Source: Bacteroidota bacterium
Lineage (GTDB): Bacteria > Bacteroidota > Bacteroidia > Chitinophagales > Chitinophagaceae
DNA: 35,287 nucleotides
Direction: 5' to 3'
Assembly (NCBI GenBank): GCA_013288745.1
Contig: JABDBG010000022.1
Span: forward strand, 1-35,287
Shown here: in pieces, positions 5,238 to 28,671 of the stretch
Position numbering within the stretch: position 1 is the first letter of the stretch
How the letters are laid out: each line of letters opens with the position of its first letter
Made by a program: the position numbers and the translations under genes
Notes under the pieces: generated by a model
The model's input: only the letters and a program-made list of their open reading frames with translations
Told to the model about the DNA's origin: nothing
Database searches by the model: none

Positions 5238-7563
5238 ATGACACGTCCAGTAAAAATTCTGTGGATCATTTTTCTTAGCGGCTTGCTATTCGTAGTGCTT
5301 CTTTTTGTTGCTGCGGATGTAGGTGTATTTGGCAAAATGCCTTCTTTAACAGAATTGGAAAATCCTGATGCGGATCTTGCCAGTGAGATCTATTCAAATG
5401 ATGGCTTGCTGATGGGTAAATATTTTGCAGAGAACCGCACTGAAATAAAATATGATCAGATATCACCAAACATTATTCATGCACTGGTAGCGACCGAAGA
5501 TGAACGTTTTTACGATCACTCAGGTATCGATGCCAAAGCGGTAGCAAGGGTCTTTCTTAAGTTGGGCAGAGACGGAGGCGGTAGTCCGATAACGCAGCAA
5601 TTAGCAAAGATGATGTTGAAACAAGGTCATGGCGGCTTTTTAAAAAGAAGTGTAGATAAAATTAAAGAATGGATAATCGCCGTAAAGCTTGAGCGCAATT
5701 TCACAAAAGAAGAAATTTTAACCTTATACCTTAACCGCGCACCATGGGGTTATAATTATGGAATAAGAAATGCATCACGTACGTATTTTCAAAAAGAGCC
5801 GGCGGATCTTAGTGTTGAGGAAGCGGCAGTGTTGGTAGGCATGCTGAAAGGATTTGTGTATGATCCTATCCGCCATCCCAAAGCATCATTGAATCGCCGC
5901 AATACCGTTATCCAAAGAATGGTCGATTGTAAAGAACAATATTTAACGCAGGATGAAGCGGACAAATTGAAAGCAATGCCCCTTGTTACCAACTTTAAAA
6001 AATCTGATGATGATGTTGGCATAGCGCCTTATTTCCGCCAGGTATTGGCAGATAGACTAAAAGACTGGTGTAAAGATCACCGCAACCCAAAAACAGGAGA
6101 AAGCTACGACCTGTACAGAGACGGATTGAAAATATACACAACGATCGATTCAAAAAATGCAGGATTATGCAGAGCAATCTGTGATCGAACATATGCCCAT
6201 CATCCAACAAAAATTAAATGCGCTTTTAAAAACCAATGGTTCTAAAATGTGGAAGGGACACGATAATGTGATCGATGCCGCTATGAAAGAAAGTGACCGT
6301 TGGAAAAATATGGAAGAGGATAGCATTAGTGAAGATGAGATAGCAGCATCATTTACGGTACCGGTAAAAATGAAGGTGTTTGCCTGGAACGCGGCAAGAG
6401 AATTAGATACCGTGATGACGCCAAGAGATTCTATCAAATACCACAAGCAATTAATGCAAACATCTTTTGTTTGTATGGATCCTAGAACGGGTGAGGTAAA
6501 ATGTTGGGTAGGTGGTATCGATTTTAAATGGTTCAAATTTGATCACGTTACAGCACTCAGACAAGTAGGTTCAACTTTCAAACCATTACTCTATACATTG
6601 GCAGTACAAGATGCGGGCTACACGCCACAAACATTGGTGCCGGGCGGTACTATTTGCTTAAGCGGTAAATGTATAACGGGTGGTGGCGGTACACTGGCGT
6701 ATGGTTTAGCACATTCAAAAAATCCTGTGGCTTACAGATTGATGTCTGTCATTGGTCCGGATCGCCTGGTAGAGTTTGCGCACACTTGTGGTATTAAAAG
6801 TTTTATCCCTGATGTGCCATCCATCGCATTAGGTACTGCTGAAGTACCGATGCTTGAAATGTTACGTGCTTATACCATGTTTCCAAACAAAGGATATAAT
6901 ACAGAACCAATTTTGGTTACACGCATCGAAGATAAAGACGGTAATATTTTACAGGAATTTGTGCCCGAAACAAAACAGGTTATCAGTGAAGTGAATGCCT
7001 ACACAATGGTTAAACTCATGGAAGGTGTTGTAGATTTTGGAACGGGCCATTCGTTAAAAAATTATAATATCCCCGTAAAGAAAGCGGGTAAAACAGGTAC
7101 AACAAATGATAATACCGATGGATGGTTCATTGGTTATACGCCGGAATTATTAGCCGGTACGTGGGTTGGTTGTGATGATCAGTTCTTGAAAATATATTCT
7201 GGTACATCCGGTGGTAATGAAATGGCTCTACCTAAATGGGGTAATTTTATGACCAAAGTATATGGGGATAAAAAATTGCCGTACGGAAAAATATTAGACT
7301 TTCCTGAACCTCCTCAGGCGTTGAATAATCCTGAATATGCCGATCTGAATGCTGCCTTATTTAATCAGACAGATAGCACCAGTTATCCCGAAGATCAGGG
7401 TAATGGCGATGCAGGCGATTATGCTGATCCTTCATCTAACGATTATGGAACAAGCGATGATGCAACAAAAACAGATGCTAAGTCTAAAGCTGTAAAGGAT
7501 ACAGGCAAAGTAAAAATAAAAAAACCGGTAAGCAATGCACCAAAAAGTAATAATGACTTTTAA
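5238..7563 (+). CDS. Class A penicillin-binding protein 1A (GT51 plus transpeptidase); frame broken at an A6 run
   Basis: A bifunctional peptidoglycan synthase in the inner membrane. It has one N-terminal membrane helix (about residues 8-29). A GT51 glycosyltransferase domain follows, with catalytic Glu in ATEDERFYDHSG, then GGSPITQQLAK and ERNFTKEEILTLYLN. The transpeptidase domain has the active-site serine in GSTFKP, then SKN and KTGTT. The C-terminus is a low-complexity Asp/Ser/Lys tail. The reading frame breaks at six As (6152-6157): the first frame ends at 6245 and the second ends at 7563. Removing one A gives YTTIDSKMQDYAEQSV, the expected TTIDsxMQ motif joining the two domains, and a 774-residue protein of normal length. 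It lies 26 bases after porW, probably in the same operon, and a hairpin terminator follows the stop. As a true mutant it would keep only the glycosyltransferase half. Confidence 0.88.
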
Positions 7564-7595
7564 AGGCTTCATTTTCTACTGAAATTTATAGATGC

Positions 7596-7623
7596 AAAAA
7601 CCCCGGATACGTCGGGGTTTTTT
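7596..7623 (+). terminator. Intrinsic terminator after the PBP1A gene
   Basis: The arms AAACCCCG and CGGGGTTT flank a 7-base loop and lead into a T run. The hairpin starts 33 bases after the PBP1A stop, so it most likely ends the porW-PBP1A transcript. Confidence 0.8.
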
Positions 7624-7789
7624 ATTGCCTTTTGGTAGTATTTCAGTTTACTTGTGCTTATATTTTAGATGTGTTTAGCGTTAATATTCGAGTCTTTTAA
7701 TTCAGCTCCTAATCATTTATTGGGCATTGTATTTGATGTTTTATCAGTAGTTAGTTAAATTCCTAGAGAATTATAATTTTAGACATATC

Positions 7790-18272: not shown

Positions 18273-18280
18273 TATCTTTG
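18273..18280 (+). promoter_or_regulatory. Promoter -7 box for SRP RNA
   Basis: TATCTTTG is an exact TAnnTTTG box. The predicted start a few bases later coincides with the first paired base of the SRP RNA (GGCAAG at 18285), which supports both calls. Confidence 0.8.
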
Positions 18281-18284
18281 CAAC

Positions 18285-18378
18285 GGCAAGTCTTATACGG
18301 CCAGCTCCTGTTGAACTCCCCCAGGACCGGAAGGTAGCAAGGGTAGATGGTTGAGCGGTGCGATGTAAGTAACTTGCC
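18285..18378 (+). ncRNA. ffs: Signal recognition particle RNA (4.5S type)
   Basis: About 94 bases. The ends pair (GGCAAGT with ACTTGCC), and the middle holds the conserved apical part of helix 8: CCCCCAGGACCGGAAGGTAG followed by CAAGGG. This includes the GGAA tetraloop-type apex and the asymmetric internal loop that binds Ffh. It is the small bacterial SRP RNA without an Alu domain, which guides membrane-protein ribosomes together with Ffh and FtsY. A TAnnTTTG promoter lies four bases upstream, and a T-rich stretch follows. Confidence 0.9.
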
Positions 18379-18414
18379 ATTTTTATTTAATATTTTCGAT
18401 CTACTATAGAATTG

Positions 18415-20119: not shown

Positions 20120-20410
20120 TTATTTGTTCCAAACATCTTTGTATTGCGCTTCATTTTTAGTAAAAACCGATTTTACAAAAGGACATAAAGGGAATATTTT
20201 TAACCCTTTTTCTCTGGCATAACTAACACCGGCATCTATCAATTGATGGCCTGCATGTTTCCCTTGCAACACGTCGGCTACTTCGGTATGTTGAATGATC
20301 ATTAGCTTGTTATTAGCTATTGTGTAGGTCATTTCTGCTAATGGTTTATCATCTCCCATTATATAAAAAGAACCTTTGCCATCGGCTTTTTCCTCATGTT
20401 GTATCTGCAT
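20120..20410 (-). CDS. Small GNAT-type N-acetyltransferase (YjdJ/Gtn-like)
   Basis: About 96 residues starting MQIQHEEKADGKGSFYI. It matches the small single-domain acetyltransferase-like family: AEMTYTIANNKLMIIQHTEV, then VLQGKHAGHQLIDAGVSYAR with the shortened acetyl-CoA loop (GKHAGHQL) and KIFPLCPFVKSVF. I chose the ATG at 20410. A GTG at 20467 would add 19 residues with no family match, and it overlaps a promoter-like box of the trp leader on the other strand. The substrate is unknown. Confidence 0.8.
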   Translation of the reverse strand: MQIQHEEKADGKGSFYIMGDDKPLAEMTYTIANNKLMIIQHTEVADVLQGKHAGHQLIDAGVSYAREKGLKIFPLCPFVKSVFTKNEAQYKDVWNK

Positions 20411-20483
20411 TTGAGCAATTTTAACTGAATTTACTAAAATAATTTTTTTATTAATTAAATCTACCACATCTTTGTGTTAACAA

Positions 20484-20537
20484 ATGAAAAATCAATATAC
20501 AAATAACAATAGTTGGTGGTGGCAAGCAATTTTTTAA
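20484..20537 (+). CDS. trpL: trp operon leader peptide with three consecutive Trp codons
   Basis: A 17-codon ORF, MKNQYTNNNSWWWQAIF, with TGG TGG TGG at 20514-20522 and stop TAA at 20535-20537. It lies 105 bases upstream of trpE and is followed by overlapping alternative hairpins and a strong T-run terminator. Position and codon content are as expected for a leader peptide that senses charged tRNA-Trp. A near-consensus promoter box CATCTTTG (20467-20474) lies just upstream, so the leader may be almost leaderless. No obvious Shine-Dalgarno site is present, as is normal in this phylum. Confidence 0.85.
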   Translation: MKNQYTNNNSWWWQAIF

Positions 20538-20617
20538 TTGTGTCGCTTAACTATTGGTATGTATTATAAATACTTTAATGAGCCCCGACACAATTGTGTC
20601 GGGGCTTTTTCTTTTTT
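20507..20617 (+). promoter_or_regulatory. trp attenuator: pause, antiterminator and terminator segments
   Basis: Segment 1 (CAATAGTT at 20507-20514, plus AAGC at 20524) pairs with GCTTAACTATTG at 20545-20556, forming a hairpin that overlaps the Trp codons. Segment 2 (AATTGTGTCG, 20536-20545) is complementary to segment 3 (CGACACAATT, 20586-20595), forming an antiterminator. Segments 3 and 4 form the terminator at 20581-20606. The leader stop codon sits at the start of segment 2. A ribosome stalled at the Trp codons would cover segment 1 and free segment 2 to block the terminator. A ribosome that reaches the stop would cover segment 2 and let the terminator form. Confidence 0.85.
20581..20617 (+). 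terminator. Attenuator terminator of the trp operon
   Basis: A perfect 26-base palindrome, AGCCCCGACACAA followed by its inverse TTGTGTCGGGGCT, leads into TTTTTCTTTTTT (with the last arm base included). It ends 25 bases before the trpE ATG. Confidence 0.92.
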
Positions 20618-20642
20618 GTCAGAATGAGAATATAAAATAGCA

Positions 20643-22064
20643 ATGAAAAAAATAGAAATAACAACCACATCAAAAAAGATCTTAGCAGATGTGTACACGC
20701 CGGTAGGTATCTACCTTCGTTTAAGAGACAGGTTCAGGGATACGATATTATTAGAAAGTACAGATTTTCATGCAGGTGAAAATAGCTATACCTATATAGC
20801 CATTAATGCAATTGCAGGTATTGAGATCAGCAATATGTCTGTAATGGAATTTAAATTGCCTAATGAAACACCTGAGAAAGTAAAGTTTGCCGATCCTTCA
20901 GAAGTGCCACAACAGCTTTGGAATTTTATGCAGCGTTTTGATATTAAAAAAGCGGCAACAAAGCCTGTCAATACCGCACAAGGTTTATTTGGTTACACAA
21001 CATATGATGCCGTTCAGTTTTTCGATACGGTGCAATTGGATAATCCGCATGGCGCAGATCAATCCTCGCAAATTCCATTGATGCGATACAGGTTGTACCA
21101 GTATGTTATCGCCATCAATCATTTTAAAGATGAATTATATATTTGCGAGAACAAGATAGAAGGAATTAAAAGTGATGTTGAATTAGTAGAAACACTGATC
21201 AAAAGTAAAGACGTTCCAACATTTCCTTTTAAAATCAAAGGGGAAGAAACATCTAATCTAACCAATGATGAATACGTTGATATCGTTAAAAAAGGAATAG
21301 CTAGCTGTTTAAGAGGCGATGTGTTTCAAATTGTTTTGAGCAGAAGGTTCCAGCAATCTTTTACCGGCGATGAATTCAATGTTTACAGAGCTTTGAGAAG
21401 TATCAATCCTAGTCCGTATTTATTTTATTTTGATTACGGCGATTATAAATTATTGGGTTCTTCACCCGAAAGCCAGGTGATTATACAAAATGGAAAAGCG
21501 ATCGTACATCCCATTGCAGGAACTTTTAGAAGAACGGGCGATGATGAACAGGATAAAGCGCTTGCCGTAAAATTGCAGCAAGATCCAAAAGAAAATGCGG
21601 AGCATGTGATGTTGGTCGACCTTGCGAGAAACGACCTGAGCAGGATGTGTACCGAAGTAGAAGTAACACAATATAAAAAGATCAATTTCTATTCTCATGT
21701 CATTCATATGGTAAGCGAAGTGATAGGTAAAGTACCTGCCGACACGAACCCATTTAAATTATTAGCGGTGAGTTTTCCTGCTGGTACATTAAGCGGAGCG
21801 CCTAAATTTAAAGCGATGCAGCTGATCGATAATTTTGAACCCACAGCAAGAAGTTATTATGGCGGAGCAATTGGCTTTATAGGCTTTGATGGCAGTTGCA
21901 ATCACGCGATCATGATCCGGACTTTCTTAAGCAAGGATAATACGTTAACATCACAGGCAGGAGCGGGTATCACAATAGCCAGCAAGCCTGAAAGTGAATT
22001 GCAGGAAGTAAATAATAAATTAAACGCATTGAAACAAGCTATTGAATTAGCACAAAATATTTAG
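20643..22064 (+). CDS. trpE: Anthranilate synthase component I
   Basis: A 473-residue enzyme that makes anthranilate from chorismate, the first step of tryptophan synthesis, using ammonia from TrpG. The N-terminal motif LLEST (near residue 38) is the LLES-type tryptophan feedback site. The C-terminal chorismate-binding domain has FQIVLSRRF, SPYLFYF, GSSPE, HPIAGTFRRTG, ENAEHVMLVDLARND and PAGTLSGAPK, all typical. It is the first structural gene after the attenuator and is separated from trpG by one base. It is both feedback-inhibited (inferred from LLES) and attenuated (inferred from the leader). Confidence 0.96.
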   Translation: MKKIEITTTSKKILADVYTPVGIYLRLRDRFRDTILLESTDFHAGENSYTYIAINAIAGIEISNMSVMEFKLPNETPEKVKFADPSEVPQQLWNFMQRFDIKKAATKPVNTAQGLFGYTTYDAVQFFDTVQLDNPHGADQSSQIPLMRYRLYQYVIAINHFKDELYICENKIEGIKSDVELVETLIKSKDVPTFPFKIKGEETSNLTNDEYVDIVKKGIASCLRGDVFQIVLSRRFQQSFTGDEFNVYRALRSINPSPYLFYFDYGDYKLLGSSPESQVIIQNGKAIVHPIAGTFRRTGDDEQDKALAVKLQQDPKENAEHVMLVDLARNDLSRMCTEVEVTQYKKINFYSHVIHMVSEVIGKVPADTNPFKLLAVSFPAGTLSGAPKFKAMQLIDNFEPTARSYYGGAIGFIGFDGSCNHAIMIRTFLSKDNTLTSQAGAGITIASKPESELQEVNNKLNALKQAIELAQNI

Positions 22065-22065
22065 G

Positions 22066-22635
22066 ATGAAAATATTAGTATTCGATAACTACGATTCTTT
22101 TACATACAATTTGGTTCACCTTGTAGAAAAGATTATGCACCAAAAAGTAGATGTATACCGCAATGATCAGATCGCTTTGGAAGATGTGAAAAAGTATGAT
22201 AAAATTATTTTATCTCCCGGTCCAGGTGTACCAAGTGAAGCGGGTTTGTTATTGCCTCTGATAAAAGAGTATGCACCTACGAAATCTATACTGGGTGTAT
22301 GTTTGGGTCATCAGGCGATAGGAGAGGCTTTTGGCGGTACACTAACAAACTTAAGTGCTGTGTATCATGGTGTAGCAACGCCGATCAAGATCATTAATCA
22401 AAAAGCACAGGTCTTACAAGGATTAGGAGATACTGTTGAGGTAGGAAGATACCATAGCTGGATCATTGCCAACGAAGGTTTTCCGGGAGAGCTTGAAATA
22501 ACAGCTACTGATGAAAATGGATATGTAATGGCGTTACAACATAAAAAATATGATGTGCAAGGAGTACAATTTCATCCTGAAAGCGTATTAACGCCTGCGG
22601 GTGAGCAAATGTTGAGGAATTGGCTGGGAAAATAA
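22066..22635 (+). CDS. trpG: Anthranilate synthase component II (glutamine amidotransferase)
   Basis: A 189-residue class I glutamine amidotransferase that supplies ammonia to TrpE. The start KILVFDNYDSFTYNLVHLVE, oxyanion-type LSPGPGVP, nucleophile Cys in GVCLGHQAIGE (near residue 78) and the His/Glu pair in VQFHPESVLTP form the complete catalytic triad. It could also serve p-aminobenzoate synthesis, but its place between trpE and trpD argues for tryptophan. It follows trpE after one base. Confidence 0.95.
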   Translation: MKILVFDNYDSFTYNLVHLVEKIMHQKVDVYRNDQIALEDVKKYDKIILSPGPGVPSEAGLLLPLIKEYAPTKSILGVCLGHQAIGEAFGGTLTNLSAVYHGVATPIKIINQKAQVLQGLGDTVEVGRYHSWIIANEGFPGELEITATDENGYVMALQHKKYDVQGVQFHPESVLTPAGEQMLRNWLGK

Positions 22636-22675
22636 TTCATAAAGAATTGTATTCTCATCACAACAAAAAAATAAA

Positions 22676-23668
22676 ATGAAAAAAATATTAAACTATTTAT
22701 TCGAACATAAAAGCCTTTCGAGAGAACAGGCTAAAGAAGTATTACTCGATATTTCTAAAAGCATGTATAGCGAAAGTGAAATAACTGCTTTCATAACGGT
22801 GTACCTTATGCGTAGTATTACCATCGAAGAGCTGCAAGGTTTCAGAGATGCACTAATGGAGCTTTGTGTGCCCGTAAATTTAAGTGCTTATAATGTAATG
22901 GATATTGTTGGAACAGGTGGCGATGGAAAAGATACATTCAATATTTCGACCCTTAGCTGCTTTATCGTAGCGGGTACCGGAAACAAAGTTGCCAAGCATG
23001 GTAATTACGGCGCGTCTTCTATCAGTGGGTCTTCAAATGTGATGGAACAGATCGGGTACAAATTCAAAAATGATGTATCGGTATTAGAAAAAGAGATTGA
23101 GGCATCGAATATTTGTTTTTTGCACGCACCTTTATTTCATCCTGCATTGAAAGTTGTTGGTCCGATAAGAAAGAGTTTAAAAATAAGGACATTCTTTAAT
23201 ATGTTAGGTCCCATGGTTAATCCGGCTTTGCCAAAATATCAATTGGTTGGTGTTTATAGTTTGGAAATGGCCCGGATATATAATTATTTATTGCAACAAA
23301 ATGCAGAAGCATTCACAATTATACATAGTCTGGATGGCTACGATGAAATATCTTTGACCGGCGATACAAAAGTCATTACCCAGGCAGGAGAAAAAGTAAT
23401 GACCGCAGAACAGTTAGGTAAAAGAACAGTGAATGCAATTGATATTCAGGGTGGCGATACGGTAGAAGCATCCGCAAAAATATTCATGGATATTTTGAAA
23501 GGGAAAGGTACCTGGTCGCAAAACGCAGTAGTGTTGGCTAACTCAGCAATGGCATTACAATGTACAGGCAAGTATACAACATACGAAGAGTGTTATCAGT
23601 TAGCAGTTGAAAGTTTAGAAGGTGGCAAGGCATATGAAGCACTGCAAAAATTAATTAAAGTAGCGTAA
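22676..23668 (+). CDS. trpD: Anthranilate phosphoribosyltransferase
   Basis: A 330-residue enzyme that joins anthranilate to PRPP. It has the Gly-rich PRPP site DIVGTGGDGKDTFNIST (residues about 79-95), KHGNYGASSISGSSNVME with the conserved Lys-His-Gly-Asn, and the RTFFNMLGPMVNP motif. The length is normal for a stand-alone TrpD (no TrpG fusion). The stop overlaps the trpC start by one base (TAATG), suggesting translational coupling. Confidence 0.96.
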   Translation: MKKILNYLFEHKSLSREQAKEVLLDISKSMYSESEITAFITVYLMRSITIEELQGFRDALMELCVPVNLSAYNVMDIVGTGGDGKDTFNISTLSCFIVAGTGNKVAKHGNYGASSISGSSNVMEQIGYKFKNDVSVLEKEIEASNICFLHAPLFHPALKVVGPIRKSLKIRTFFNMLGPMVNPALPKYQLVGVYSLEMARIYNYLLQQNAEAFTIIHSLDGYDEISLTGDTKVITQAGEKVMTAEQLGKRTVNAIDIQGGDTVEASAKIFMDILKGKGTWSQNAVVLANSAMALQCTGKYTTYEECYQLAVESLEGGKAYEALQKLIKVA

Positions 23669-24456
23669 TGAATATTTTAGATACAATAATAGAACAGAAA
23701 AAGATCGAAGTAGCTGAAAGAAAGCTGACATCTACCATTGAGCATTTAAAAGAAAGCTCTTTTTATACCCGCCCTGTTTTTTCGTTGAAACAATTTTTAT
23801 TGGATGAAACCAAGACGGGTATTATCGCTGAGTTCAAAAGAAGATCTCCTTCAAAAGGAATTATCAATGATAAAGTTGATGTAGAAGAAGTGACAAGAGC
23901 TTACACACAATTTGGCGCCAGCTGTTTATCTGTTTTAACAGACGAACATTTTTTTGGCGGCTCTACAAAAGATTTGAAGAGAGCTAGAGTAAATCATATT
24001 CCTATTTTAAGAAAAGATTTTATCATTGATGAATACCAGATTGTAGAAGCAAGGGCGATGGGTGCTGATGTTATCTTATTAATAGCAGCCTGTCTAACAC
24101 CGCAGCGTGTAAAAGAATTGGCGACCTTTGCAAAAAAAATACAACTCGAAGTTTTGCTGGAAATTCACAATGAAGAAGAGTTGCAGCATATTTGTGCCGA
24201 GACGGAAATAGTGGGCGTAAACAACAGGGATCTAAAAACATTTACCGTAGATATTAATCGTTCAATTGAATTGAGTAAAAAAATTCCGGCTGATAAAATT
24301 AAAATTGCAGAAAGTGGTATTCATGATATTGAAACAATTCTTATCTTCAAGAAAGCTGGGTTCAAAGGATTTCTTATAGGAGAGAACTTTATGAAGCAGC
24401 CGGATCCAATGATTGCATTTGCTGATTTTGCCAACCAATTAAAATTATCAGTTTAA
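23668..24456 (+). CDS. trpC: Indole-3-glycerol phosphate synthase
   Basis: A 262-residue TIM barrel that closes the indole ring. Characteristic motifs are GIIAEFKRRSPSKG with catalytic Glu and Lys (residues about 52-65), LSVLTDEHFFGGS, PILRKDFIIDEYQ with the catalytic Lys, and GVNNRDLKTF and AESGI near the phosphate site. It is not fused to TrpF, unlike in E. coli. It overlaps both neighbours by one base (TAATG junctions). Confidence 0.96.
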   Translation: MNILDTIIEQKKIEVAERKLTSTIEHLKESSFYTRPVFSLKQFLLDETKTGIIAEFKRRSPSKGIINDKVDVEEVTRAYTQFGASCLSVLTDEHFFGGSTKDLKRARVNHIPILRKDFIIDEYQIVEARAMGADVILLIAACLTPQRVKELATFAKKIQLEVLLEIHNEEELQHICAETEIVGVNNRDLKTFTVDINRSIELSKKIPADKIKIAESGIHDIETILIFKKAGFKGFLIGENFMKQPDPMIAFADFANQLKLSV

Positions 24457-25085
24457 TGAGATTAAAAGTTTGTGGTATTACGCAGGAAGATCAAATGGCA
24501 CAATTAGCCGATGCCGGCGCAACTTTTGGCGGGTTTATTTTCTACCCAAAATCTCCCCGCTATGTGCTACGTACCATGACGACCAGTCAAATTAAAAAGG
24601 AAAACAACATTAATAAAGTAGGTGTGTTTGTAAATGCAACCGTGGACGAAGTGTTACAAATGGTAGATGAGTGCCGTTTACATATTGTTCAGTTACATGG
24701 AGATGAAACACCGAAATATTGTGAGAAGATCGCAGATTATATCTCCGTAGTAAAAGCTTTTCGTTTAAGCGAGACAGATAATATTGGCTACCGGATACAG
24801 GAATATATGAACGTTTGCGATATGTTCATGTTCGATACGGAAGGTGTTGGGTACGGCGGCACAGGCAAAAAATTCAACTGGGATATGCTGAACGATGTAG
24901 TAGTGGGGAAACCTTATTTTTTAAGTGGCGGCATTGAACCCGGCGACGCCGAAAAATTAAAAGTTTTTGAACAGAAGCCCGAAGCAAAAGCATTGTTTGC
25001 TGTAGATATCAATAGCAAATTCGAAATTGCCCCGGGTATAAAGGATATGGAACTCATTAAAAAATTCGCACAAGAAATAAAATAA
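24456..25085 (+). CDS. trpF: Phosphoribosylanthranilate isomerase, first copy
   Basis: A 209-residue TIM barrel for the Amadori rearrangement of phosphoribosylanthranilate. The catalytic Cys is in KVCGIT (residue 6) and the catalytic Asp in MFDTEG (near residue 127). Phosphate-site motifs GGTGKKFNW and FLSGGIEP, and AVDINSKFE, are also present. All key residues are kept, so it should be active. It starts by overlapping trpC (TAATG) and is followed five bases later by a second, diverged copy. Confidence 0.94.
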   Translation: MRLKVCGITQEDQMAQLADAGATFGGFIFYPKSPRYVLRTMTTSQIKKENNINKVGVFVNATVDEVLQMVDECRLHIVQLHGDETPKYCEKIADYISVVKAFRLSETDNIGYRIQEYMNVCDMFMFDTEGVGYGGTGKKFNWDMLNDVVVGKPYFLSGGIEPGDAEKLKVFEQKPEAKALFAVDINSKFEIAPGIKDMELIKKFAQEIK

Positions 25086-25090
25086 CAAAT

Positions 25091-25726
25091 ATGAATATCA
25101 AAGTATGTGGCATTACACAAATGAAACAATTGCAACAGTTGGATGGATTGAACATTGATTTTGCAGGATTTATTTTTCACAAAGATTCTCCGCGTTATGT
25201 AGGCGATAAAATATCTAAAGATGAATTACAGTCTGCCGATTTTGATGTAAAAAAAGTAGGTGTGTTTGTCAATGCTACTTATGATGAGATAATTGATACG
25301 GTGGAAGATTATGGGTTAGATATCGTACAGCTGCACGGAGATGAAACACCGGAATTGTGCGAACAGTTATTGGAAGATGTTGAAGTGATAAAAGCGTTTA
25401 GCATTAGCGACGATGATGAAATGTCGATCGATGAAATGATCGCTGATTATGATGAAGTGTGCGACTATTATTTATTCGATACAAAAGCAGGTGACGCGAT
25501 CGGCGGTACCGGTGTAAAATTCGATTGGAAAAAGATCGCTAAAAGCAAAATAGAGAAACCTTTCTTTTTAAGTGGTGGCATCAGCGTTGATGACATTGCA
25601 AAAATAAAAGCATTCAAACATCCTGATTATTTTGGTATTGACGTCAACAGCAAATTTGAAAAAAGTCCGGGTGTAAAAGATATGGCCCTGCTATTGCAAT
25701 TGAAGCAGGGATTAAAATCAAAATAA
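25091..25726 (+). CDS. trpF: Phosphoribosylanthranilate isomerase, second tandem copy
   Basis: A 211-residue second TrpF directly after the first. It keeps the catalytic Cys (KVCGIT, residue 6), the catalytic Asp (LFDTKAGD), GGTGVKFDW, FLSGGIS and GIDVNSKFEKSPGVKDM. By eye, roughly 40-50% of positions match the first copy, so this is an old duplication or a gain from a relative rather than a recent repeat. It is richer in Asp/Glu (DDDEMSIDEMIADYDEVCDY). Both copies look catalytically complete. A shift in substrate (as in PriA-type dual TrpF/HisA isomerases) cannot be excluded but nothing in the sequence shows it. Confidence 0.9.
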   Translation: MNIKVCGITQMKQLQQLDGLNIDFAGFIFHKDSPRYVGDKISKDELQSADFDVKKVGVFVNATYDEIIDTVEDYGLDIVQLHGDETPELCEQLLEDVEVIKAFSISDDDEMSIDEMIADYDEVCDYYLFDTKAGDAIGGTGVKFDWKKIAKSKIEKPFFLSGGISVDDIAKIKAFKHPDYFGIDVNSKFEKSPGVKDMALLLQLKQGLKSK

Positions 25727-26218
25727 ATGATCCTCGTAAGAACAGCTACCATACATGATCTGCCGGCAATGACGGTTATTTATAATGACATTATAGCTAA
25801 CACAACAGCGGTATACGATTATGAGCCTCATACGATGGAGATGCGCGAAAAATGGTTCGCGACAAAACAAGAACAAGGCTTTCCTATATTCGTGGCAGAA
25901 GAAGATAAATTGATTGTGGGGTTCAGCTCTTTCGGAACATTCAGGGCCTGGGCGGGTTTTAAGAATACGGTAGAGAATTCAATTTATGTAGCGGCGGAAC
26001 ACAGAGGTAAAGGGATCGGGAAATTATTATTGCCACCATTGATTGAAGCAGCTAAAGAATTAAAATTGCACGCGATCGTTGCAGGTATCGATGCCACAAA
26101 TAATATCAGTATCGAATTACATAAAAAATTCGGGTTTATAGAAGTAGCACATTTTAAAGAAGTCGGTTACAAATTTGACCGATGGCTTGATCTGGTGTTT
26201 TTAGAATTGATTGTGTAA
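25727..26218 (+). CDS. GNAT acetyltransferase, phosphinothricin acetyltransferase-like, inside the trp operon
   Basis: A 163-residue GNAT. MILVRTATIHDLPAMTVIYN at the start, the PIFVAEEDKLIVGFSSFG strands, the acetyl-CoA loop HRGKGIGKLLL (near residue 95) and KLHAIVAGIDATNNISIELH followed by KFGF are typical of the Pat/YwnH-like group that acetylates amino groups of phosphinothricin or methionine sulfoximine-type compounds. The start is the base after the trpF2 stop, so it is surely co-transcribed. It has no known part in tryptophan synthesis; it may act on a pathway product or analogue. Confidence 0.87.
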   Translation: MILVRTATIHDLPAMTVIYNDIIANTTAVYDYEPHTMEMREKWFATKQEQGFPIFVAEEDKLIVGFSSFGTFRAWAGFKNTVENSIYVAAEHRGKGIGKLLLPPLIEAAKELKLHAIVAGIDATNNISIELHKKFGFIEVAHFKEVGYKFDRWLDLVFLELIV

Positions 26219-26233
26219 GTAAAATCAAAAGTG

Positions 26234-26286
26234 AAAAGTCAAAACCTAAAAGAATCAGACTTTTTTACTTTTAGGTTTTGACTTTT
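26234..26286. repeat. Perfect 19-bp inverted repeat inside the trp operon
   Basis: AAAAGTCAAAACCTAAAAG (26234-26252) and its exact inverse (26268-26286) flank a 15-base loop with six Ts. It lies in the only sizeable gap of the operon (90 bases between the GNAT gene and trpB). It could stabilise or process mRNA, or partly terminate upstream transcription. Confidence 0.85.
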
Positions 26287-26308
26287 AAATTTTTAATTAA
26301 TAAGTTAG

Positions 26309-27514
26309 ATGACAACAAAAGAAAATATATTCTCCGTCGATGCACATGGTTATTACGGAGATTTTGGCGGCGCCTTCATTCCAGAAATGTTATATCCCAA
26401 TGTGAAGCAGCTGCAGGATGAATATTTAAAGATAATGTATGATGATGCTTTTCAAAAAGAGTTTCAATATTTATTGCGAGATTATGTTGGCAGGCCATCA
26501 CCATTATTTCTAGCAGAAAGATTAAGCAAAAAATATGGCACATCTATTTATTTGAAAAGAGAAGATCTTAATCATACCGGTGCGCACAAGATCAATAATA
26601 CGATAGGACAAATATTATTAGCGATCCGCTTGGGTAAGACAAGAATTATTGCCGAAACAGGCGCCGGTCAGCATGGTGTAGCAACTGCAACGGTTTGTGC
26701 GTTAAAAGGTTTGGAATGCATTGTGTACATGGGTGAAAAAGATATTGAGCGCCAGGCGCCGAATGTAGCCAGGATGAAAATGTTAGGTGCAACAGTGATA
26801 CCGGCAAAGAGCGGCAGCAAGACTTTAAAAGATGCAACGAATGAAGCGATCAGAGACTGGATAAATAATCCTCTTGACACGCATTATATAATTGGTAGCG
26901 TTGTTGGCCCGCATCCTTATCCCGATATGGTAGCACGTTTTCAAAGCGTGATCAGCGAAGAGATAAAAAAACAATTATTAGAAAAAACAGGAAACGAATT
27001 ACCTACGCATGTGGTAGCTTGTGTTGGCGGTGGTAGTAATGCAGCGGGTTCTTTTTATCATTTCTTGGATGATCTTTCTGTAAAGCTGGTGGCAGTTGAA
27101 GCAGCCGGACATGGCGTACATAGCGGATCAAGCGCCGCAACAACACAATTGGGAACACCGGGTATTTTACATGGCAGCAAAAGTTATGTAATGCAAACAG
27201 AAGACGGACAGGTAATAGAACCACATAGCATTTCTGCAGGATTAGATTATCCCGGTATCGGCCCAATGCATGCACATTTATATAAAAGCGGCCGTGGTAT
27301 TTTTATGAGTGCAACTGATGATCAATCATTAGAAGCAGCATTTGAATTAGCTACTTTAGAAGGAATTATTCCTGCTTTGGAATCAGCACATGCATTGTAT
27401 GCGTTGAACGAGATCAAATTTAAAAAAGATGATGTAGTAGTAGTCTGCTTAAGCGGAAGAGGTGATAAGGATATGGCAACATATATGACAGCGATGGAAA
27501 AAACTAAATTGTAA
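26309..27514 (+). CDS. trpB: Tryptophan synthase beta chain
   Basis: A 401-residue PLP enzyme that joins indole and serine. It has the PLP lysine in [14 protein letters not shown] (near residue 90), [13 protein letters not shown], the Gly-rich phosphate loop [10 protein letters not shown], and [16 protein letters not shown]. It is the TrpB1-type length that partners with TrpA. A lipoprotein gene separates it from trpA by about 390 bases. Confidence 0.97.
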
Positions 27515-27524
27515 AATTTAATAA

Positions 27525-27896
27525 ATGAAAACTTTTAGAATAATATCGGTCATTGTAATAATTGTATTATTTGCTTCCTGCAAAGGAGGTAATTACATTA
27601 ATCATGATCTAAAAGCAGAAAGGATCGGAGATTGTTCTGCGACACTAACAGCTTGTACATTAACAGAGAATTCTTTTGGTGAACACTATGAATTTAATCG
27701 TTGTTTGGTCGAAGGTTTTAATACTGATGATTATTTAATAGAAAGAAAAGGGGATACACTGGTATTAACTTTTCCTAAAGAAAAAAATGATGAACCCAAA
27801 GCACTGTATAAACTAGATCTTGATATACACGCCAGCCCGAAATATAATTTTATACAATTAGGTACAGAGGTCTTACAGATCAGTCCGGTAAATTAA
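27525..27896 (+). CDS. Small lipoprotein of unknown function between trpB and trpA
   Basis: A 123-residue protein that I do not recognise. The N-terminal helix IISVIVIIVLFASC ends in a good lipobox (FASC, Cys near residue 19). The mature part has three further Cys (GDCSATLTACTL and NRCLVEG), which could form a disulfide pair in the periplasm, and beta-strand-like segments towards the C-terminus. Spacing is 10 bases after trpB and 4 bases before trpA, so it is an integral operon member. A surface or periplasmic lipoprotein has no obvious role in tryptophan synthesis. Confidence 0.7.
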   Translation: MKTFRIISVIVIIVLFASCKGGNYINHDLKAERIGDCSATLTACTLTENSFGEHYEFNRCLVEGFNTDDYLIERKGDTLVLTFPKEKNDEPKALYKLDLDIHASPKYNFIQLGTEVLQISPVN

Positions 27897-27900
27897 TACA

Positions 27901-28671
27901 ATGAGTAAAATACAAACGCTTTTTAAAAATAAGAATAGCAAGGTCTTAAATGTTTATTGCACTGCAGGTTATCCTGAATTAACAAGTACTGTTCCTGTGA
28001 TGAAAGCATTGCAACAAAATGGCGCAGACCTGATAGAAATCGGAATGCCTTACAGCGATCCCTTAGCTGATGGCGAAGTAATACAAGAAAGCGGCAGCAA
28101 GGCTTTAGCAAATGGCATGACGATCGCAGTTTTATTCGATCAACTAAAAAATTCAGCTAAAGACATTACGGTACCTGTTATATTAATGGGCTACATGAAT
28201 CCTGTAATGCAATATGGCTTCGAAAAATTTTGTTCCAAAGCCGCTGAAGTCGGCGTAAGCGGATTGATATTGCCCGACTTACCGATCTACGAATTTGAAA
28301 CGCAATACGGCGCGATCATTAAAAAATACGGATTGGATTTTGTGTTTTTAGTAACACCCGAAACAAGCGAAGAAAGGATAAGGAAAATTGATGCATTAAC
28401 AACAGGTTTCATTTATGCGGTCTCATCTTCCTCAACAACCGGTAACAATAAAGCGATCGCTGATCAGGAGCCTTATTTTAAAAAACTCCAATCAATGAAC
28501 CTGACCAACCCGATCCTGGTTGGGTTTGGCATAAAAGATAAAGCTACTTTTGGCGCAGCTTGCGGGTATACAAACGGTGCTATTATCGGCAGCGCCTATA
28601 TAAAGGCCCTTGCCAATACAAAAGATATCAACAGTACCACTAAAGAATTCTTAAATACCGTTTTGGGGTAA
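27901..28671 (+). CDS. trpA: Tryptophan synthase alpha chain
   Basis: A 256-residue TIM barrel that splits indole-3-glycerol phosphate and passes indole to TrpB. The catalytic Glu is in LIEIGMPYSDPLADGEVIQE (near residue 47) and the catalytic Asp is the second Asp-type residue of PYSDPLADG. YCTAGYPE, ILMGYMNPVMQYG, GLILPDLP and VGFGI are also typical. It is the last gene of the operon, four bases after the lipoprotein gene. Confidence 0.96.
   Translation: MSKIQTLFKNKNSKVLNVYCTAGYPELTSTVPVMKALQQNGADLIEIGMPYSDPLADGEVIQESGSKALANGMTIAVLFDQLKNSAKDITVPVILMGYMNPVMQYGFEKFCSKAAEVGVSGLILPDLPIYEFETQYGAIIKKYGLDFVFLVTPETSEERIRKIDALTTGFIYAVSSSSTTGNNKAIADQEPYFKKLQSMNLTNPILVGFGIKDKATFGAACGYTNGAIIGSAYIKALANTKDINSTTKEFLNTVLG

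Follow-up and report, generated by a model that had tools for sequence, protein, structure and literature searches.

The stretch immediately upstream of trpE almost certainly carries a ribosome-mediated transcription attenuator, through which the level of charged tRNA-Trp governs the trp operon. It was studied in a window of 35,287 nucleotides (the whole stretch of DNA that was analysed) from a Bacteroidota bacterium of the family Chitinophagaceae. An initial annotation had claimed such an attenuator from the letters of the sequence, and the claim is supported by the conservation of the parts in relatives, by covariation of the pairing strands and by thermodynamic consistency; from these we infer a response to tryptophan. 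The kind of element is already known, and the new aspects are modest: members missed by the Rfam threshold, a nearly leaderless start (predicted), and two positions of the stop codon.

Leader peptide and pairing elements upstream of trpE

The features of the leader and of the operon are listed in Table 1. The leader ORF of 17 codons, claimed at the outset together with its three consecutive Trp codons, was read directly on the sequence from the ATG at 20484-20486 to the TAA at 20535-20537. The stop codon lies at the start of the antiterminator, as had been stated, with strand 2 running from 20536. The 9-mer TGGTGGTGG has a single occurrence in the window, at 20514-20522, and was also present in 11 of 100 window shuffles; thus it is weak by itself and its location carries the weight. 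The remaining parts that had been described also stand on the sequence. AATTGTGTCG is the exact reverse complement of CGACACAATT, which gives a perfect antiterminator of 10 bp (20536-20545 with 20586-20595), and the 26-base palindromic terminator with its T run ends at 20617, 25 bases before the trpE start at 20643. A terminator scan of 20300-20700 returned one site, that of 20581-20606, where 0.2 were expected. The hairpin overlapping the Trp codons is present in the minimum-energy fold, in which CAAUAGUUG pairs with UAACUAUUG and GGUGGC with GUCGCU. The fold of 20484-20617 has an energy of -44.7 kcal/mol against a shuffle mean of -22.97 (z -6.49), and none of 200 dinucleotide shuffles was as good.

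Table 1. Positions in the window of the predicted promoter, the attenuator parts and the trp genes
Feature	Positions	Strand	Basis
T-tract at the place of the -33 element (TTTG in Bacteroidota sigma-A promoters; predicted)	20443..20449	+	sequence
Predicted -7 box CATCTTTG (consensus TAnnTTTG), 9 bases 5' of the ATG	20467..20474	+	sequence, leader survey
Leader peptide ORF, 17 codons and stop, MKNQYTNNNSWWWQAIF	20484..20537	+	sequence reading, relatives
Hairpin 1:2 (pause or anti-antiterminator), spanning the Trp codons and strand 2	20507..20556	+	minimum-energy fold
Three Trp codons (TGG TGG TGG), sensor	20514..20522	+	sequence; run conserved in leaders
Antiterminator strand 2, AATTGTGTCG	20536..20545	+	sequence, covariation
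Intrinsic terminator, 12 bp: palindrome AGCCCCGACACAATTGTGTCGGGGCT at 20581-20606, then T-rich tail	20581..20617	+	sequence, fold, terminator scan
Antiterminator strand 3, CGACACAATT, common to the terminator 5' arm	20586..20595	+	sequence, covariation
trpE, first structural gene	20643..22064	+	PF00425, PF04715
trpG, trpD, trpC, trpF, trpF copy 2, GNAT gene, trpB, 123-aa ORF, trpA	22066..28671	+	profile matches (123-aa ORF: none in NCBIfam)

Conservation of the leader in relatives

Relatives were fetched by TrpE from 39 genomes chosen by kinship (including the window genome, which is 72% complete) and from the best 80 of 271 related loci. The tblastn search (E <= 1e-60) gave 96 TrpE loci, which became 94 after two repeats of the window (L001 and L002) were removed; the 94 include the window and keep some near-duplicates, in which the same genome stands in two collections. 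A Trp-codon leader ORF is found at 92 of these 94 loci, so that the WWW ORF, whose retention in relatives had been proposed as a check, is indeed kept. At 90 of the 94, a short ORF with WW, WWW, WLW or WIW lies at most 500 bases upstream of trpE. The script used for this (ATG, GTG or TTG start; WW or WxW; within 500 bases) had returned 91 of 94, one of which, L016, was judged spurious and left uncounted. At two further loci (L039 and L054), the leader ORF is located about 600 bases upstream and another gene, presumably a reading frame similar to small GxxExxY proteins, stands between the terminator and trpE, with the attenuator parts kept. L016, from another family of the order, is without a leader at its TrpE locus, and for L098 no leader was seen in the 48 bases that its contig offers upstream.

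Parsing of 89 of the 94 loci gave 80 distinct regions, and a terminator was present in all of them except L083 (79/80). Of the 79 distinct leaders, 72 carry WWW as their Trp run, 5 carry WW, 1 carries WLW and 1 carries WIW; in 78 the first Trp codon sits 21-30 bases past the start ATG. For the structural comparison, L086 was dropped because its ATG is absent in the expected range, and the resulting set of 78 leaders was divided into alignment A1 (35 leaders, the window's group) and alignment A2 (43 leaders, the second group). In 63 of the 79 leaders, the window among them, the antiterminator duplex beats 95 or more of 100 shuffles; the other 16 fall short of this, the worst being L010 (57 of 100 shuffles as good). 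When the leader was folded alone, as before synthesis of the terminator, 62 of 78 leaders had at least half of strand 2 paired with upstream RNA; such sequestration would favour termination when no ribosome is present.

Covariation of the common strand and its partners

The compensatory changes looked for in relatives are present, as strands 2, 3 and 4 covary, the antiterminator less clearly so in the second group. In A1 (35 sequences), 89.0% of the antiterminator cells are paired, 20 cells show changes in both partners (6.9 in shuffles), and the covariation score is 0.198 (0.119 in shuffles). On these three of five measures the antiterminator tops all 500 shuffles; on the other two it is matched by 67 and 155 of them. 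Partners slid out of register reach at most 47.5% paired, and one column pair (63/114) is unpaired in 10 of the 35 sequences. The A1 terminator is paired in 96.8% of cells over the same 35 sequences with a score of 0.259 (0.138 in shuffles); three of its five measures lie above all 500 shuffles, and the other two are matched by 16 and 19. In A2 (43 sequences), the terminator is as clear as in A1, with 97.4% paired and a score of 0.352. The A2 antiterminator (83.4% paired, score 0.203) is weaker: 71 of 500 shuffles have at least as many pairs changed on both sides, and at a slide of -2 the partners outdo the true register on three count measures.

Judged from the alignments, the strongest single sign of covariation is a triple of A1 columns, 60/116/127 in strands 2/3/4, which reads T-A-T in 16, C-G-C in 14 and otherwise in 5 of the 35 sequences. 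On the TrpE tree, the C-G-C label requires five gains or losses, three of which well-supported branches make unavoidable, and nine changes are needed for all three labels; therefore, the joint change does not go back to a single inherited event. RNAalifold on A1 gives the terminator only because MAFFT displaces hairpin 1:2 among the sequences, and so this hairpin was assessed sequence by sequence. Taken at the level of aligned sequences, an antiterminator and an intrinsic terminator with a common strand, mutually exclusive, are kept by covariation, although the second group's antiterminator shows this more weakly.

Two positions of the stop codon relative to the antiterminator

The two groups differ in the position of the stop codon. 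In the window's group (35 leaders), the stop lies 15-24 bases past the first Trp codon and strand 2 begins in or after it in 34 of 35, whereas in the second group (44 leaders) the stop is found at 30-33 bases and strand 2 begins inside the ORF in all 44. The extended peptide of the second group often reads WWWHTNSxRGL, and the C-terminal HTNSxRGL is conserved in much of the group. The codons of this C-terminus overlap the pairing: hairpin 1:2 joins CAAACTC to GGGGCTTG, and the antiterminator joins GGGGCTT to AAGCCCC. By comparing the distance from the first Trp codon to the start of strand 2, the medians are close, 23 bases in the window's group versus 21 in the second group, and the spacing is 20-25 bases in all 35 leaders of the window's group. 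A ribosome positioned at the stop would cover strand 2 in both arrangements. As the stop crosses strand 2 while the distance from the Trp codons to strand 2 stays near 22 bases, the ribosome footprint would be the conserved quantity, and not the stop. We consider it fairly probable that this trp attenuator RNA is nearly leaderless and that its stop codon has crossed the antiterminator strand at a constant spacing of about 22 bases between the Trp codons and strand 2. The two layouts of stop and antiterminator offer a natural experiment on the geometry that matters for ribosome-controlled termination.

Proposed mechanism and ribosome-masked folding

We hypothesize that transcription starts a few bases 5' of the leader ATG and that a ribosome initiates the 17-codon leader at or very near the 5' end of the RNA. 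When charged tRNA-Trp is scarce, the ribosome would stall at 20514-20522 and open hairpin 1:2, so that strand 2 (20536-20545) would be free to pair with strand 3 (20586-20595); the terminator would be blocked and RNA polymerase would reach trpE. When it is plentiful, the ribosome would get to the stop at 20535 and cover strand 2, and the terminator (20581-20606) would form, with termination at the T run. Without a ribosome, strand 2 would be hidden by hairpin 1:2, which would lead to termination too.

This geometry was modelled by masked folding, in which the ribosome was assumed to cover 13 bases downstream of the A site and the nascent RNA ended in the terminator loop. In the window, the mean antiterminator pairing fell from 0.73 when the ribosome stood at the second Trp codon to 0.06 when it stood at the stop. 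All 44 leaders of the second group and 32 of the 35 in the window's group showed a difference of at least 0.3 between the stalled and the stop state (76/79 with this assumed footprint); the two states were separated by less than 0.3 in L007, L045 and L076, all of the window's group. Thus, in the model, strand 2 would be free with the ribosome at the Trp codons and covered with the ribosome at the stop. Residual antiterminator pairing above 0.1 with the ribosome at the stop was obtained in 25 of 35 leaders of the window's group and in 1 of 44 of the second group. The complete terminator wins at equilibrium in both ribosome states (medians 0.93 and 0.94), and therefore the choice between the two structures must be kinetic. 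The choice in the E. coli trp attenuator is likewise kinetic. In the state without a ribosome, whose model begins at the first Trp codon and omits the portion of strand 1 before the Trp codons, antiterminator pairing was still 0.69 in the window (group medians 0.31 and 0.62), which makes the ribosome-free termination step weaker than the others.

Predicted promoter and 5' end of the RNA

In Flavobacterium psychrophilum, the -7 box is placed at -12 to -5 (PMC9723704), and the same position of the box in the window would put the transcription start near 20479 and leave a 5' UTR of about 5 bases (predicted). The relation of box and ATG was surveyed in 75 of the 79 leaders, as the upstream sequence or the ATG is lacking in L059, L082, L086 and L088. 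In 62 of the 75, a strict -7 box ends 5-9 bases upstream of the leader ATG; none was found in 12, and one lies at 35 bases. The control gene starts are rough because the 229 control genes are mechanical ORFs taken from their first ATG; 5 of these 229 have a box that ends 4-10 bases upstream of the start, 15 have one farther away, and 209 have none within 60 bases. In the 14-26 bases before the strict box (63 leaders), TTTG is present in 43 and TTTTT in 18, so that either occurs in 61 of 63. A looser box was used for the class-wide sample described below: of its 35 leaders, 20 have the box 4-10 bases upstream of the ATG and 7 have it farther away, and none was found in 8.

From these promoter positions, a nearly leaderless attenuator RNA is predicted, with ribosome loading within about 1-5 bases of the transcription start. 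Such short mRNA 5' ends are rare in the two mapped species of the phylum: leaderless mRNAs are given as 5.5% in F. psychrophilum (PMC9723704), and 5' UTRs of fewer than 10 bases as about 3.7% in Bacteroides thetaiotaomicron (PMC7366714). Shine-Dalgarno sequences are reported absent in these bacteria (PMC9723704). In the literature, nothing was found on trp attenuators of Chitinophagaceae or on leaderless Bacteroid-trp RNA, which is a weak sign because subscription journals were mostly out of reach. Two modest additions to the published accounts found are the -7 box near the ATG and the shift of the stop position at constant spacing between the Trp codons and strand 2.

Alternative modes of control

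In favour of a constitutive leader followed by an ordinary terminator, with no sensing of tryptophan, terminators are common, and the ORF at 20120-20467 is on the opposite strand, so the stretch is intergenic between divergent genes. However, the terminator is oriented with trpE and stands between the predicted promoter and trpE, and the Trp codons, strand 2 and terminator are kept together in relatives, including L039 and L054, so that we regard a constitutive leader as very improbable. TRAP, TrpR and T-box elements are regulators of trp operons in other bacteria, and control of this kind, by a protein or directly by tRNA-Trp, is scarcely credible here. No T-box family was matched on the region at the Rfam gathering threshold or in a permissive scan, as the initial annotation had anticipated. 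The TRAP profile PF02081 was matched in 0 of 39 genomes (own included, which is 72% complete), and two of the 39, neither of them from the genus, matched the TrpR profile PF01371, one over and one under its cut-off; in the 24 genomes of the genus (own 72% complete, some of the other 23 incomplete), neither TrpR nor TRAP had a match. T-box, TRAP and TrpR control were rejected on these grounds, the lack of an Rfam T-box match and of a TRAP or TrpR match in the genus.

It is also conceivable that the leader peptide or the terminated RNA acts in trans, like peTrpL and rnTrpL of Sinorhizobium meliloti. Termination would release a short mRNA with almost no 5' leader, as in that species (PMC7298713), and the HTNSxRGL tail is conserved in much of the second group. 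The tail is, however, absent from the leader of the window, and the conserved codons of the second group coincide with RNA pairing, so that selection on the peptide is not required. An additional function in trans is unlikely, though less so than the two modes of control above.

Relation to known trp leaders

A 2004 survey of amino-acid attenuators reportedly mentions Bacteroidetes in its abstract. The initial annotation had left in doubt whether such attenuators have been described for Bacteroidota, and they have: RF01692 is the Bacteroidete tryptophan peptide leader RNA, a motif listed as a Bacteroidetes cis-regulator by Weinberg 2010 (PMC2864571). It was likened to the E. coli trp leader and located before the F. 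psychrophilum trp operon in PMC6414381, and strong clues for upstream leader peptide attenuation of amino-acid operons in F. psychrophilum are mentioned in PMC9723704. RF01692 and the window element share the phylum, the place before trp operons, a Trp-codon ORF, a hairpin over it and a terminator. At the gathering threshold, no Rfam family matched 20484-20617. In a permissive scan, RF01692 gave the top bit score on the window stretch, 36.7 bits, which is below its gathering score of 49, so that formal membership fails; all 131 positions of the model were aligned, to 20464-20589, and its hairpin fell on the Trp codons. VrrA and Spot_42 gave lower E-values than RF01692 on this stretch; the alignments of these two and of RF04312 (trpB motif) rest largely on the terminator. 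RF01692 gave one match only in the window genome at E <= 1 (E 0.0113), and its cut-off was reached in 0 of the 39 genomes searched, own included. In the related loci scanned permissively, RF01692 was absent at E <= 1 from the listing of 12 of 12 and RF00513 appeared below threshold in 6 of 12; in 18 loci of the class, scanned in the same manner, RF01692 was listed for 1 and RF00513 for 5, all below cut-off. Eight loci scanned with Rfam at the gathering threshold gave no match. These mixed listings single out no nearest known family by Rfam score alone.

Five members of RF01692 above the cut-off were found in the class sample (L162-L166). They have a short ORF with WW or WWW 24-30 bases past the ATG, in leaders such as MRTILVNTYWWWHSVQLTRS, with an inverted repeat and T run behind it, and stand before trpB-trpE (3) or trpE (2). 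In the leaders of two such members (L129, L132), the distance from the -7 box to the ATG is 18 bases, compared with 9 in the window. A model, R1, was built from the leaders of the second group alone. Its best match on the window is the element itself (20484-20611, 49.4 bits, E 4e-10), and it finds the leader in 36 of 37 further loci unused in building, a set from which near-duplicates and L083, L086, L096 and L098 were excluded; thus, the two leader groups belong together. R1 also matches four of the five RF01692 members (L162-L165, not L166) at the leader with 32.3-38.8 bits, a small margin over the noise level of about 30.1. This level was taken from an ordinary-looking terminator behind an ORF of the window (7535-7624), which R1 matches with 30.1 bits. 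The window element is likely a relative of RF01692.

The enterobacterial trp leader (RF00513, E. coli trpL) follows the same logic, with Trp codons in strand 1, a stop codon near strand 2, a 2:3 antiterminator and a 3:4 terminator. Unlike E. coli trpL, which has two Trp codons, the window leader has three and a predicted 5' UTR of about 5 bases, and belongs to a genus without a TrpR match in 24 genomes. RF00513 reached 22.4 bits on the window and stayed below its gathering score of 41 at every locus scanned. The trpL of S. meliloti is alike in being a Trp attenuator, and attenuation there operates without repression of transcription and the attenuator RNA begins at the trpL ATG (PMC7298713), so that a nearly leaderless attenuator in the window would have a precedent. 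It differs in that S. meliloti is an alphaproteobacterium, in that its 5' end is known and that of the window predicted, and in the function in trans reported there (PMC7298713).

Occurrence in the class Bacteroidia

The class-wide sample comprised 149 genomes, of which 51 had a strong TrpE match. These 51 places were covered by 29 existing loci and by 20 of the 22 others, which were fetched (two at contig ends were left), and after L160 and L161 were dropped for want of a TrpE match, 47 loci were obtained. The script found a Trp-codon ORF close upstream in 35 of the 47, with a terminator in 34 of these. The loci without an ORF by the script are of several kinds: three (L144, L147, L151) have an RF01692 match above cut-off farther upstream, before trpB; two (L116, L124) are cut by the contig end; two (L136, L141) have R1 matches of 27.2 and 30.4 bits, which is noise level; and in five (L119, L121, L140, L149, L150) no leader was found upstream of TrpE. 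RF01692 reached its cut-off in 5 of the 149 genomes, in a search with stricter filters and 20 candidates per genome that also missed the window itself. By comparing the 35 of 47 loci that have a Trp-codon ORF with the 5 of 149 genomes that have RF01692, it follows that annotation by Rfam only would miss many such leaders. The survey points to a wide distribution of the textbook trp attenuator within the class Bacteroidia. In three leaders (L142, L143, L148) from genomes of one family, WRW replaces WWW (e.g., MILNTNTWRWQVSLS).

The trp operon and a neighbouring RNA

The best NCBIfam match of trpE was trpE_most (TIGR00564) with 404.3 bits, under the curated cut-off of 517.7. The operon contains two adjacent trpF genes, at 24456-25085 and 25091-25726, which both match PF00697 and share 46.5% identity over 202 aligned positions; the pair looks like an old duplication within the operon. 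The 123-aa ORF within the operon (27525-27896) had no NCBIfam match, and a GNAT acetyltransferase gene is located at 25727-26218, also within the operon. Upstream of the leader, the Bacteroidales small SRP RNA (RF04183, 89 bits) was identified at 18277-18383.
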